A stretch of DNA of 40,678 nucleotides from Actinomycetota bacterium (lineage in GTDB: Bacteria > Actinomycetota > Aquicultoria > JACQXZ01), in contig JACQXZ010000005.1 of assembly GCA_016208465.1 (NCBI GenBank), positions 1 through 40,678 on the forward strand, given 5' to 3'. The translations under genes and the position numbers were made by a program. This document shows positions 9,904 through 38,039 of this stretch, in pieces (within the stretch, counting starts at the first letter, position 1; each line of letters starts with the position of its first letter). The notes under the pieces are model-generated. The model saw only the letters and a list, made by a program, of their open reading frames with translations, searched no databases and was not told where the DNA came from.

Positions 9904-10515
<612 letters not shown>

Positions 10516-10550
10516 TTATTGTGTCTATTCTATTATTCATAATTTATTTG

Positions 10551-10583
10551 CCCTTGCTAGCCTCGCCGGACTACATTTAAAGG
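10551..10583 (-). ncRNA. PyrR-binding loop of the pyr leader
   Basis: Minus strand CCTTTAAATGTAGTCCGGCGAGGCTAGCAAGG, matching the PyrR anti-antiterminator pattern (AGUCCnGnGAGGCU in a CCUU...AAGG stem). Confidence 0.9.
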
Positions 10584-10591
10584 TTAAATTG

Positions 10592-20208: not shown

Positions 20209-21969
20209 TTAAATCTTAAACCGTTTTCGGTTGTGATACTCCTGTTGTTTCCCCGGATTCCATTTCGATATTCGGGTAAAATAACCTACTACCCGGCTAA
20301 CATAATCAACTATTTCAGAACCACAAGACGAACAAGCGGATGTCTTACCGCGGGAAAGGTGATTGTTTCTGCAAATACTGAAATCAGGAGAAAGAGCAAA
20401 ATATGCAAGATCGGTCTGACTTAATTTTTTAACAAAATTCTTTAAGGCTGAAACAGAAGGCAGAGATTCTCCCATCCAGATATGACAAATAGCTCCCCCC
20501 GTAAAAAAAGGATGAAACTTTGACTCGACTTCAATTTTATCAAAAATTGAAACATCTTCGCTGTAAGGCACATGAGAACTATTGGTGTAATAAAAACTTC
20601 CTGTCTCTCCCTGAACAAAAGCAGAACCATCAAATCTTTTAACATCAATTGTTGCCAATTTATGAGAAGCTGATTCTGCTGGTGTCTGCTCAAGTGTATA
20701 GATAACTCCGTCTTTTTCTGATGCTTCTTTTGTTTTAGCCGCTATATGTTTGATGATTGTAAGTCCGAGTTCCCGACCTTCTGAGGAAACTAATGGCTTG
20801 TCAATAAGATTAACCAGACATTCATTCAATCCAACAACACCAACCGTTAATCTTCTCTCGTCAAAATTATAATAAGGAGCGTTATCATCTGTTTTCATCT
20901 CAAGCCATGAAAGAATCTTCCATTTCTCAATACTCGTTTTTACTATTGCATTGCTTTCCAAAAGCGCTTGTCTCGCAATATCTATATTATGATCAAGACG
21001 ATCAAAAAATTTTTTCTCCTCCTTTGCCTCAAGAGCAATGTGCGGCAGGTTCAAGGTGACTACTTTATTTGATCCAGTCCCCAAACCGCCCGCCATCCAG
21101 ACACCGGCGCTATGCTCAACGAGTAATCGGCAGCACATCGCGTGAACATATTTTTCATCCAGATAACTGGCGGCTAAATTTAAAAAATAGGGAGCGCCGG
21201 TTTTCGAGGCCGCTTCCATCGTCGCATCAACTAATTCATCTTCCCAGTTAAAATCTTTTGTGATTGCGGTGGTAATAATAGGGAAAGTAAAAGGCAAACC
21301 CATTCCGTCACCCTCTCCCATAACTTCCATAAAAGCGCGATAGATGGTTCTTGCCTCTTTTTCAAATTCACTATAAGTATAATTTTCTTTTTTTCCGTCT
21401 AGTATAACCTGTTCATTTTCCAGATAAGGAGGACATTTAATTCTTAGTCCGACATTGGAAAACGCAGATTGAGCGCCGGTTCGATTGGATTGATTTAACT
21501 GAAATACAAATCCCTGAATAACCTGTTTAACCTCTTCATAAGAAAGCTCGTCCTTTCTTATGAAGGGAGCGAAAAACCAGTTGAAATAATCGATTGCCTG
21601 AGCGCCTGAAAAAAATAGCTGGGTGTAAAACAAATAAGCCATTGCCTGATATACTGCCGAACTAAAATGTTTTGGGGGAGCGCTTCGACAGTGGGGAAAT
21701 TTTAATCCATCTAAAAGAAAAATTCTTGCGTCTATCCCATTGCAATACGGCCTGAATGGACTATGAAGAGTATGGATATAAATTGAACCATTTTTGTGAT
21801 GCTTTACAACATCTTCGCTGTATAATTTATTTAACGCGTATTCTTCATTTATCTGCGATGAAATGTAAAGATCAATCAAAGAAGGACTCATCTGGGTATT
21901 TGAATTTTCCCTAAGAAGCCATGTTTTATTTTCCAAAACATCATCAATCAAATCGTAAAGCTTTTTCAT
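20209..21969 (-). CDS. nrdD: Anaerobic (class III) ribonucleoside-triphosphate reductase, no ATP-cone
   Basis: NrdD core, zinc site CRNNH...CSSCG and C-terminal RVVGYFTRISKWNPGKQQEYHNR. Confidence 0.9.
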   Translation of the reverse strand: MKKLYDLIDDVLENKTWLLRENSNTQMSPSLIDLYISSQINEEYALNKLYSEDVVKHHKNGSIYIHTLHSPFRPYCNGIDARIFLLDGLKFPHCRSAPPKHFSSAVYQAMAYLFYTQLFFSGAQAIDYFNWFFAPFIRKDELSYEEVKQVIQGFVFQLNQSNRTGAQSAFSNVGLRIKCPPYLENEQVILDGKKENYTYSEFEKEARTIYRAFMEVMGEGDGMGLPFTFPIITTAITKDFNWEDELVDATMEAASKTGAPYFLNLAASYLDEKYVHAMCCRLLVEHSAGVWMAGGLGTGSNKVVTLNLPHIALEAKEEKKFFDRLDHNIDIARQALLESNAIVKTSIEKWKILSWLEMKTDDNAPYYNFDERRLTVGVVGLNECLVNLIDKPLVSSEGRELGLTIIKHIAAKTKEASEKDGVIYTLEQTPAESASHKLATIDVKRFDGSAFVQGETGSFYYTNSSHVPYSEDVSIFDKIEVESKFHPFFTGGAICHIWMGESLPSVSALKNFVKKLSQTDLAYFALSPDFSICRNNHLSRGKTSACSSCGSEIVDYVSRVVGYFTRISKWNPGKQQEYHNRKRFKI

Positions 21970-35141: not shown

Positions 35142-35225
35142 TGCCTTCACGTCGCCTTTTGTCTTTGAATTAACCTATCACAAATTTTAAGACAATGCAA
35201 CCTCGGACTTGAAAGGAGGATTATA
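35104..35225 (-). promoter_or_regulatory. Structured ileS leader with mutually exclusive hairpins
   Basis: -10-like TATAAT (35225-35220), then GAGGTTGC...GCAACTTC pairing and GACGTGAAG-GCAA-CTTCTCGTC hairpin (35153-35132) overlapping the terminator stem. Confidence 0.6.
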
Positions 35226-35275
35226 GAGAATTTTCAGGAGAGGCTTGACTTCTTTAACCTAAAGGTATTTGTTTG

Positions 35276-35497
35276 TTAGGCTGCCGTCAATTCTAATTTT
35301 TCTTTTGTTTCAGCAGGAAGCCTCACAGGGGCAAAATAATCCATGGGATACAAATAATCTTCTCCAGATTCATCTATCACTCGTATTTGGTGGTGTTTCT
35401 CCGCCACTCGATCTACCAAGACCTCATATATTTTTCTAATCTCCAATGAGGCTTCGTATCCACGATTGCTTACACAAACCATAAAATGTCTTTTCAT
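35276..35497 (-). CDS. Conserved hypothetical protein (cassette gene)
   Basis: MKRHFMVCVSNRGYEASLEIRKIYEVLVDRVAEKHHQIRVIDESGEDYLYPMDYF; the stop codon lies in an attC-like GCCTAAC. Confidence 0.7.
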   Translation of the reverse strand: MKRHFMVCVSNRGYEASLEIRKIYEVLVDRVAEKHHQIRVIDESGEDYLYPMDYFAPVRLPAETKEKLELTAA

Positions 35498-35507
35498 AAT
35501 TCCTCTC

Positions 35508-35738
35508 TTACAAATATTTCTTAATTTTAATTTCTTTCTTGCCTATACCGTGTCCTTCATGCCAATGAACTTCAGCATTGCGGATTAAACCGTCTACCAA
35601 TTTAATACGGCATTCCCCTTTTAATTTTCTCCAACTTGTTTTGCCATATATCTTGTTCAACCGATTCAAATTCCTAATTCCATGTCCGGTAGCAATAGTT
35701 TCAATTTCCCGTATTTGTTCTATTAGCTTGAAATACAT
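35508..35738 (-). CDS. Conserved hypothetical protein, partner of the downstream cassette gene
   Basis: KLKGECRIKLVDGLIRNAEVHWHEGHGIGKKEIKIKKYL; 10-nt gap to the next gene. Confidence 0.7.
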   Translation of the reverse strand: MYFKLIEQIREIETIATGHGIRNLNRLNKIYGKTSWRKLKGECRIKLVDGLIRNAEVHWHEGHGIGKKEIKIKKYL

Positions 35739-35775
35739 AGTTTAAATTTTAGCAGATTTCATAAAATATAAATAG

Positions 35776-35858
35776 CACTAACGCCTTAGTTCAGCGGCGT
35801 TTACCTGCAGAGCGACCAAATGGCGCAGGTAAATGTCCGCTGGAACGGATTGTTAGGC
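35776..35858 (-). other. attC: Integron attC (59-be) recombination site
   Basis: Minus strand GCCTAACAATCCGTTCCAGCGGACATTTACCTGC...GCAGGTAAACGCCGCTGAACTAAGGCGTTAG: R''/R' (CCTAAC/GTTAG) and L''/L' (CAGCGG/CCGCTG) in an imperfect palindrome. Confidence 0.88.
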
Positions 35859-35940
35859 TTATAACTTATTCTTAAGCATTTACTTGCCTAGATTTAGGCA
35901 CAAGCTTTTCATATATGAAACTTATTGCACACGTTAATCG

Positions 35941-36447
35941 CTACGCGGCCCCGTACATTGCCCACCGATTAAACCTCTTGATTGTCTTGTCGCCTGCCAC
36001 CGCTACGGCACCACCCACGGCGACCACTATGCCCGCTGCTGCGATTACTGGGCCAGCGACAAAGGCTCCAGCAAATGCTACTGGCACACCAATCCAAGTT
36101 GCCAATTCACCAGTACGAGCCATGGTTCGCCCAGTTTCAAGATGCTTCCGCGCACCAGCAGCAGCCTCGAGAGCAAGCACAGCCGGTTCCATGTGAGATT
36201 CACTTGCTAACTCAACCCACTCGCCTAATTTATTTCGCATGGCCAAAGCTTCTGGACTCGCTGCGAGGTCCAGTGTCTCCTTCAGTGTCGCCCCTATTGG
36301 GACTCTTCGAAGCTCTCTGCAGCTTAAGCGTAGTAGCTGCACCATTTCAGTCGAATCGGCAAGGTTAGGCAGTGTCATGGCTGGCGCCACAATATTGACA
36401 GTTGGAACAGCGCATAGGGCACCGAGGCGCAAGGAGGTAGTCAACAC
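35941..36447 (-). CDS. Hypothetical protein with Ala/Gly-rich hydrophobic C-terminal segment (cassette gene)
   Basis: GTG start overlaps the upstream gene by 7 nt; ATWIGVPVAFAGAFVAGPVIAAAGIVVAVGGAVAVAG; followed by attC. Confidence 0.6.
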   Translation of the reverse strand: MLTTSLRLGALCAVPTVNIVAPAMTLPNLADSTEMVQLLRLSCRELRRVPIGATLKETLDLAASPEALAMRNKLGEWVELASESHMEPAVLALEAAAGARKHLETGRTMARTGELATWIGVPVAFAGAFVAGPVIAAAGIVVAVGGAVAVAGDKTIKRFNRWAMYGAA

Positions 36448-37040
36448 CGTTTATATGCATTCATGCACGCGATGACAGGGCGAATAGCATCATAGCAAGC
36501 ACTGAGGTACTCCCAAGCGGCGAGTTGCTCTGCAGACAACCCCAATGATTCATCCTGGAAAATTGCACTGAGAATCTTCACAGTCTGCACATTTTCAAAC
36601 GATTTGCCGTCAGCCACCGCCTTCCACGCGACATAAGCATCACGAAATCGACTAATACGTTCCTCATATTCTGTAGTCGACCATCTGATTCCTCGCGACT
36701 CCATCATTCCAAGTAAAAGTTCCGCGCTAAGGCCCGAGACCTCGACCAGAGAATCAGCATGTGTCTCAACTGGAAGAATCACGCCCTCCTCAACAAGTTG
36801 ATCTTCCCACTCCCTTGGCAGCCAGAAAGGAATATGCACCCGACCACCCAGCACAAGCTGTTCAAGCGACTTGTCTATCATTTCCTGAGAAGGTCGTTTG
36901 TCCAGCAAATGCCTAACAAAACCGTTTCCTATCATAGGATCTCCTGGCAATAGCTCTTCTTGTACGGCAGCGTAAAGAAGCGCTCTTGCCATTGGCTCAT
37001 CTAGCACAACTCCAGGCTGATTTTGTATTTCATTTGACAT
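36441..37040 (-). CDS. Hypothetical protein (cassette gene)
   Basis: MSNEIQNQPGVVLDEPMARALLYAAVQEELL...; SD GAAAGGAG upstream of ATG. Confidence 0.65.
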   Translation of the reverse strand: MSNEIQNQPGVVLDEPMARALLYAAVQEELLPGDPMIGNGFVRHLLDKRPSQEMIDKSLEQLVLGGRVHIPFWLPREWEDQLVEEGVILPVETHADSLVEVSGLSAELLLGMMESRGIRWSTTEYEERISRFRDAYVAWKAVADGKSFENVQTVKILSAIFQDESLGLSAEQLAAWEYLSACYDAIRPVIACMNAYKRC

Positions 37041-37275
37041 TGCAAAACTCCTTTCAGGCATAATTTGTCTATTTAGCCTAACTATTAAGTATACTGACCC
37101 CGCCCTGCAGTCCATCTCTCAAATTTATCTATCTGAAAAACTAAGATCTATCAGTAAGTTCGGATATTTTCAGGGCCTCGCCAATTCTTCTTTGCTTAAC
37201 AAATACTGCGAATCTTTCAGTCTATCGTAATATCAGCCCGCAGTATATACAGACTAGCAAGCCACGGCTTATTAA

Positions 37276-37623
37276 TCAGAGTCGATCCGCAGGGCTGAAA
37301 ACTCCATGTCCGCCTCGGTTTAAGACGTGAGTATAGATCATCGTTGTACTAACATCCTTATTCAGAACATGGCGATAGAGAAATAAAATCGTATAGCGCC
37401 GAGCGCGAATTGCCAAGCGCACCTGGTCAAGGAGCTTTGGTTTGGTGGATGTTCTAGGCGGCATATCAGTAGTAGCAGTCTTGTTTTGAATATCACGTTG
37501 GTTAGAAGGCTTTGGTTTAGGATATAACTCTGACGGGGTTTCCCGAATGAGAAAGGAATCTTTCGGGGTACGAAACTTTTCAGAGCGGTTCTCAGAATAG
37601 GCTATCTTTGCGAACGTTTCCAT
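37276..37623 (-). pseudogene. Integron integrase (IntI) relic, internally deleted
   Basis: KPKLLDQVRLAIRARRYT (IntI N-terminus), LFLYRHVL (mid-region) and KDVSTTMIYTHVLNRGGHGVFSPADRL (IntI C-terminus) fused in one short ORF; catalytic Arg/His boxes missing. Confidence 0.85.
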
Positions 37624-37686
37624 AAAAAAATCCCCTCCAGTTAATAAGAGCTATTATGGCTGGATCGGTCACGCTTAATTATTTTA

Positions 37687-37715
37687 CTTATATCAAATTG
37701 TGTTATACCTGTCAA
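37687..37715 (-). promoter_or_regulatory. Sigma70-type promoter upstream of the IntI relic
   Basis: Minus strand TTGACA (37715-37710), 17 bp, TATAAG (37692-37687). Confidence 0.75.
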
Positions 37716-37745
37716 TCTTAGTGGGCAACAGGGGAAGCATCTTTT

Positions 37746-38039
37746 TTAAATATATTTCTCCAACTTACTTACAATCTCTTCATATGAAATCCCGGAAATA
37801 GCTATTCTTTTTAAGCGGCCGGTTTCTCCAGAGATTAGTTTAATCTGATTTTTCTTAACATCAAAAAAGCTTGCTAAAAAACGCAAGCATTCTTGATTTG
37901 CTTTACCCTCCACAGGAGGAGCCTTTATTTTTATTTTCAACGTCTCTCTATAAGATCCAACTATCTCAGTGCGTGAAGATCTCGGTTGGATCCATACGTC
38001 TAAAACAAAACTATCGCCACTCTTATTTATTTTAGGCAT
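37746..38039 (-). CDS. DUF167/YggU family protein
   Basis: VWIQPRSSRTEIVGSYRETLKIKIKAPPVEGKANQECLRFLA. Confidence 0.92.
   Translation of the reverse strand: MPKINKSGDSFVLDVWIQPRSSRTEIVGSYRETLKIKIKAPPVEGKANQECLRFLASFFDVKKNQIKLISGETGRLKRIAISGISYEEIVSKLEKYI

Follow-up and report, generated by a model that had tools for sequence, protein, structure and literature searches.

A probable decayed co-directional integron between yggU and ileS in a genome of a probably actinobacterial class

About one third of the surveyed intI genes are pseudogenes, and more than one intI gene is present in about 20% of the integron bearers (PMC2426708; PMC8618304). In pseudo-integrons, for example those with intI2 and the inactivated integrons of Xanthomonas, the integrase is dead and the attI site and the cassettes persist. 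The locus described here shares these properties but differs by a near-total deletion of intI and by having one cassette with a sound attC site. CALINs are also similar in that they contain an attC-flanked gene and lack a functional integrase gene. However, this class requires at least two attC sites within 4 kb and no integrase, whereas in our window a single attC match is found at E values up to 1 and the attI site and a fragment of intI are still present. As in the archaeal integrons, the attI site is located immediately downstream of intI (PMC9668308), but our locus has a bacterial host and its integrase is a relic. The chromosomal integrons of Treponema (T. denticola type) differ in that they have a spirochaete host, and in our window the integrase is deleted to a relic.

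The window, that is the whole stretch of 40,678 nucleotides that was analysed, is the entire contig C9 of a 1.75-Mb genome (G000) of an uncultured bacterium, consisting of 105 contigs. From divIVA through ileS there is a single direction of transcription. Downstream of yggU (end at position 37746) come a promoter and an ORF of 115 amino acids; ∼190 bp of non-coding sequence separate this ORF from a two-gene unit, which is followed by a hairpin and another two-gene unit. All these parts lie on the minus strand and we read them, in this order, as promoter, intI relic, attI, cassette 1, attC and a second gene pair, followed by the ileS leader. A decayed integron between yggU/divIVA and ileS had already been proposed in an initial annotation of this DNA; as relic, attI, cassette, attC and promoter are all supported by our analysis, we consider it very probable that the locus is indeed a decayed integron of the co-directional type. 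It had further been assumed that the island splits a normally compact divIVA–ileS junction. The distance between yggU and ileS is in fact larger here, 2684 bp compared to 181–818 bp in the relatives which have both genes on one locus (one relative lies outside of this range with 1358 bp and a partial YggU match), but with 0.2–0.8 kb the junction of the relatives is not strictly compact. Since the nearest available relatives are related only at the level of the class, no true empty site can be demonstrated. A search of the ileS leader for a T-box or another RNA did not yield any hit.

The evidence for an integrase relic comes from the 115-amino acid ORF at 37276–37623 (minus strand). Its last 27 residues (89–115) match the integron integrase model TIGR02249 with an E value of 2.8e-8. 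Pfam does not give a match on this ORF; PF00589 is silent whereas the integron model responds. When compared with the intact IntI proteins of G009 and G002, two genomes of the same class, the ORF resolves into three collinear pieces which are joined in frame: an N-terminal piece (PKLLDQVRLAIRARRY), a middle piece (LFLYRHVLNKD) and a C-terminal piece (DVSTTMIYTHVLNRGGHGVFSPADRL). Relative to the IntI of G009, the first deletion comprises ∼57 residues and the second ∼208 residues, and both are in frame, which would happen by chance in about one of nine cases. The catalytic tyrosine is retained, whereas the Arg/Lys/His/Arg boxes and the IntI-specific domain are deleted. As established for IntI1, the tyrosine within MIYTH is the nucleophile. 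The relic thus lacks the full catalytic set and the IntI-specific domain of a complete integron and, as predicted from its sequence, cannot be active in recombination. The interpretation of the ORF as an IntI relic was open to refutation by a match to a protein family other than integron integrases; the latter are its only matches.

The relic ATG is preceded by a ribosome-binding site, GGAGGGG, and ∼65 bp before the start of the relic lies the promoter TTGACA-N17-TATAAG (37687–37715, minus strand; −35 at 37715–37710 and −10 at 37692–37687), presumably the former promoter of intI. It matches the consensus at 11 of 12 positions, and no other match of 11/12 or better occurs between 35.0 and 37.9 kb, with 0.01 such matches expected on the same strand of the shuffled leader. 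A generic consensus promoter scan gave no excess of sites over shuffled sequences, and a stock promoter scanner omits the TATAAG site, as it demands a T at the last −10 position. We base the promoter, which the initial annotation had recognised, on the 11/12 match and on its counterpart on contig C65 of the same genome, TTGACG-N18-TATAAG.

Between the relic and the first cassette lies the attI region (37082–37275, minus strand) with the crossover point G37082|TTAGGC. The two motifs reported for this stretch are both present, GTTAGGC at 37082 and GTTAAGC at 37200, and a G|TTRRRY crossover is thus found next to intI. The attI region and the 3′ end of intI form a stretch of 257 bp which is 91% identical to positions 21099–21355 of contig C90. 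The identity between C9 and C90 stops exactly at G|TTA; beyond this point TTAGGCT follows in C9 and TTATCTGA in C90. A shared platform which diverges at the crossover base supports the crossover assignment, because cassette insertion at attI yields such a pattern. C90 itself carries a second decayed co-directional integron (C90:20380–21355, locus L025, minus strand) in which a VapBC-like cassette follows attI. The start of this cassette, GTTATCTGA, is a 9-bp complement of TCAGATAAC further downstream. Only 19 intI codons are left there, directly behind a CPBP-like gene, and C90 is therefore a second, independently truncated integron with the same orientation.

Gene cassette 1 extends over 1300 bp between the crossover points (35782–37081, minus strand). 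Its 5′ end, GTTAGGCT, is an exact 8-bp complement of the R″ sequence of its own attC, AGCCTAAC. The cassette encodes two proteins: gene a (36441–37040, minus strand, 199 amino acids) belongs to no recognised family, and gene b (35941–36447, minus strand, 168 amino acids) has a GTG start which overlaps the stop of gene a and encodes a hydrophobic Gly/Ala-rich stretch at the C-terminus. No relatives of gene a were found in Pfam, NCBIfam, PADLOC, PHROGs, plasmids and viral contigs, and the AlphaFold model from the single sequence has a pLDDT of 47.5, which is too low for a fold search. Gene b is likewise without a significant match in family libraries, plasmids and the genomes of the class. The cassette genes have a GC content of 51.7% compared to 36.5% for the window, and none of the other sliding 1.1-kb windows is equal (the best reaches 51.5%). 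A two-gene cassette more GC-rich than the backbone, as had been described, is thus borne out by its complementary ends and its foreign base composition.

The attC of cassette 1 (35776–35858, minus strand) has the R″–L″–L′–R′ fold with an extrahelical base, and its structure-scan score is 19.2 compared to 16.1 for the best shuffled sequence in 111 kb. The earlier proposal of a well-formed attC had been made dependent on a covariance model. We built such a model from 13 attC sites which stem from relatives within the class and from C41 and C12, two contigs of the same genome, with the window excluded; the pair covariation of the class attC sites is 0.174 versus 0.110 in shuffles, a value reached by 1 of 500. 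This model detects the attC of the window with 71.7 bits; the E value is 1.4e-15 for a search of 313 kb and 8e-15 for the whole genome. In addition, the site is 86–87% identical over 81–85 bp to attC sites on contigs of G017, a member of the class.

The distal part of the island is less clear. The second gene pair, a possible cassette 2, consists of gene a (35508–35738, minus strand, 76 amino acids) and gene b (35276–35497, minus strand, 73 amino acids). The pair is conserved in G021, and gene b alone has DNA matches of ∼71–75% in G025 and G032; an attC site was not found behind the homologues at the loci of these three genomes. The start of the pair, GTTAGTGC, and its end, GCAGCCTAAC, match over just five bases (GTTAG), compared to the 8 bp of cassette 1. 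Thus, of the second two-gene cassette put forward originally the gene pair stands, but with homologues devoid of attC and ends agreeing over five bases it is doubtful that this pair is a cassette. The same holds for the truncated attC start beside ileS: the R″-like sequence GCCTAACAA is present at 35281–35273, at the end of the second pair, where it opens a stretch of 78 bp, but neither a hairpin nor a model match accompanies it. We also considered this stretch (35280–35203) as a short attC and rejected it as a full attC, since the hairpin is absent and the attC model is silent.

Both ends of the island recur elsewhere in the genome, and in each case contig C65 is the only other place. The left flank repeat L (63 bp, 37679–37741, minus strand) lies just after the stop codon of yggU and recurs at C65:17926–17989, with a local alignment score of 67 versus a shuffle maximum of 24 and a blastn identity of 91% across the inner 44 bp. 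The right flank repeat R is the 78-bp stretch mentioned above (35203–35280, minus strand), which starts with the R″-like CCTAACAA. It recurs at C65:18876–18954 behind a different ORF, with 81% identity over 79 columns and an alignment score of 81 versus a shuffle maximum of 30. On C65 the two repeats have the same order and orientation as in the window and are ∼1.0 kb apart. The intervening ORF has GTTAGGCC at its start and ACCTAAC at its end, a 6-bp complement, and is cassette-like because of these complementary ends. The surroundings of the two repeats (C65:17790–19711, locus L024) contain HigBA-like pairs and a membrane-protein cassette. One could therefore imagine that the island moved as a unit bounded by L (37741–37679) and R (35280–35203), and that the platform with its ends was mobilised or duplicated. 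That C65 alone repeats both ends in this manner around a different cassette speaks for such a movement, as does the 22-bp core of R, which among the sequences compared is exact in C9 and C65 only: it is absent at such a match level from 33 of the 35 class relatives, and the two remaining relatives have it with 3 mismatches. On the other hand, inspection of the two ends by eye did not reveal terminal inverted repeats of an L–R transposon, neither a target duplication nor a transposase was recognised, and the pattern would also be expected if both loci descend from a single ancestral integron and their middles diverged. We therefore regard the movement of the island as a unit as rather improbable.

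Two further explanations concern the relic itself. The family score is carried by merely 27 residues, and one might argue that a fragment of a XerC/D-like or phage integrase has come to lie beside an unrelated hairpin. This is very hard to reconcile with the attC model match of ∼1e-14, with a duplicated attI that breaks exactly at the crossover, with the complementarity of the cassette ends and with an integron model that is positive where PF00589 is not. Such a chance resemblance thus seems extremely improbable and is, as we see it, effectively refuted already by the comparison with the attI of C90 and by the attC covariance model. Alternatively, the shortened IntI ORF could give rise to a small protein, such as a regulator which binds att sites or an integrase. 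Its three pieces share one frame, it has a strong −35/−10 promoter conserved at C65 and the GGAGGGG sequence before the ATG, and with both deletions in frame the mini-protein may have kept a function. Nevertheless, the sister integron on C90 has been truncated independently to 19 codons, which argues for free decay, the same short form is absent from the relatives, and in-frame deletions at both places are no rare event when expected by chance in about one of nine cases. We thus consider a function as a small protein to be unlikely and prefer the decayed co-directional integron as explanation. What speaks against the latter is that it has a single real attC site and that, judged from the sequence alone, a misassembly of this metagenome-assembled genome is conceivable.

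For a decayed integron of this type we propose the following course. The integrase has lost its catalytic core by at least two in-frame deletions. The surviving fixed unit comprises the promoter, the ribosome-binding site, the relic as a short leader ORF, attI, the two-gene cassette with foreign composition and the intact attC. Transcription that starts at the former intI promoter, or that reads through from divIVA–yggU, could cross the relic and reach the cassette genes. In the co-directional layout the loss of the integrase would thus fix the cassette without silencing it. The intact attC might still be a substrate for the complete IntI proteins encoded on C41 and C12, and excision in trans would be possible.

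The proposal that IntI has the same orientation as the cassettes is confirmed here: intI points towards attI, and IntI, attI, cassette and attC are co-directional. The same order is found on C90 and in G009, a class member with an intact IntI and attC sites on one strand. Within the class, the broken locus of G035 and the IntI fragments of G031 and G032 are also co-directional (in G031 additional attC sites lie upstream of the IntI fragment too). In the phylum, intact integrons of this layout are present in G205, G156, G320, G040 and G170, as assigned from model and scan matches, some of which are weak or lie at a distance of several kb; G063 has the divergent layout. Two of the co-directional integrons belong to another family of the phylum, L195 in the closed 1.84-Mb genome G156 and L194 in G205; the latter genome has about six near-uniform attC sites downstream of IntI. 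The view that the same-direction type is a minority holds overall, but among the IntI loci of the phylum whose array was found it is the commoner type. In a tree of IntI proteins the six assigned co-directional IntIs all lie on the same side of a branch supported by 85/89, and because they group together the layout appears to be inherited with the integrase. The relic of the window is too short for the tree but is, judged by its layout, a decayed member of this group.

In an IleS tree based on a stretch of 221 residues, the members of the class group together with support (100/97), and this group includes three named Actinomycetota MAGs, and the phylum is thus probably Actinomycetota, as inferred from this one gene. 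With E values up to 0.1, attC matches are present in 23 of the 36 class genomes. IntI proteins that score over the curated cut-off are encoded by 4 of these 36 genomes and by 15 of 397 genomes of the phylum. Actinobacteriota are named among the integron carriers in a review (PMC8618304). For Actinobacteria, the 2022 survey of complete genomes with IntegronFinder 2.0 reported no complete integrons, one In0 and a few CALINs (PMC9024848), and if the phylum is Actinomycetota the integrons described here fill a gap. The lineage context is of greater interest than the locus, which is one more pseudo-integron: with intact and decayed integrons in both orientations within one 1.75-Mb genome, this genome and its class are a tractable set in which the inheritance of the layout with the integrase, and the survival of cassette expression after integrase loss in the co-directional layout, can be tested. 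Tentatively, and with considerable reservation, the class could be viewed as a deep-branching, probably actinobacterial, integron-rich lineage in which the reverse layout is the rule, although both layouts coexist in this genome. Reverse integrons that have decayed would then share a platform, with a left end that carries the promoter and a right end that is characteristic; after duplication or movement as units, they would have become frozen beside housekeeping genes as islands of cassette expression.

Several further observations were made in this genome. C41 (locus L021) and C12 (locus L022) encode intact IntI proteins, ORFs of 325 and 410 amino acids, both divergent from their attC sites, which is the ordinary layout of integrons. 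Near the former lie rpsF–ssb–rpsR–rplI–dnaB-like genes, of which the dnaB-like gene (L021 5525–7315, minus strand) has an apparent intein-like insertion (CVTGETIVVLQDGRRIPIRELV...); the array of the latter contains a DNA-methyltransferase-like gene. Pieces of a tyrosine recombinase on C11, considered as another intI relic, read LGHKDSKTTEVYTHV and were not counted owing to weak scores and a stop. Contigs C36, C105, C52, C91 and C89 carry attC matches remote from IntI (E 1.8e-7 to 7e-4), possibly solo attC sites or CALINs. In the window itself a PyrR binding site (Rfam RF00515) is found at 10470–10587 on the minus strand, barely over the gathering score.
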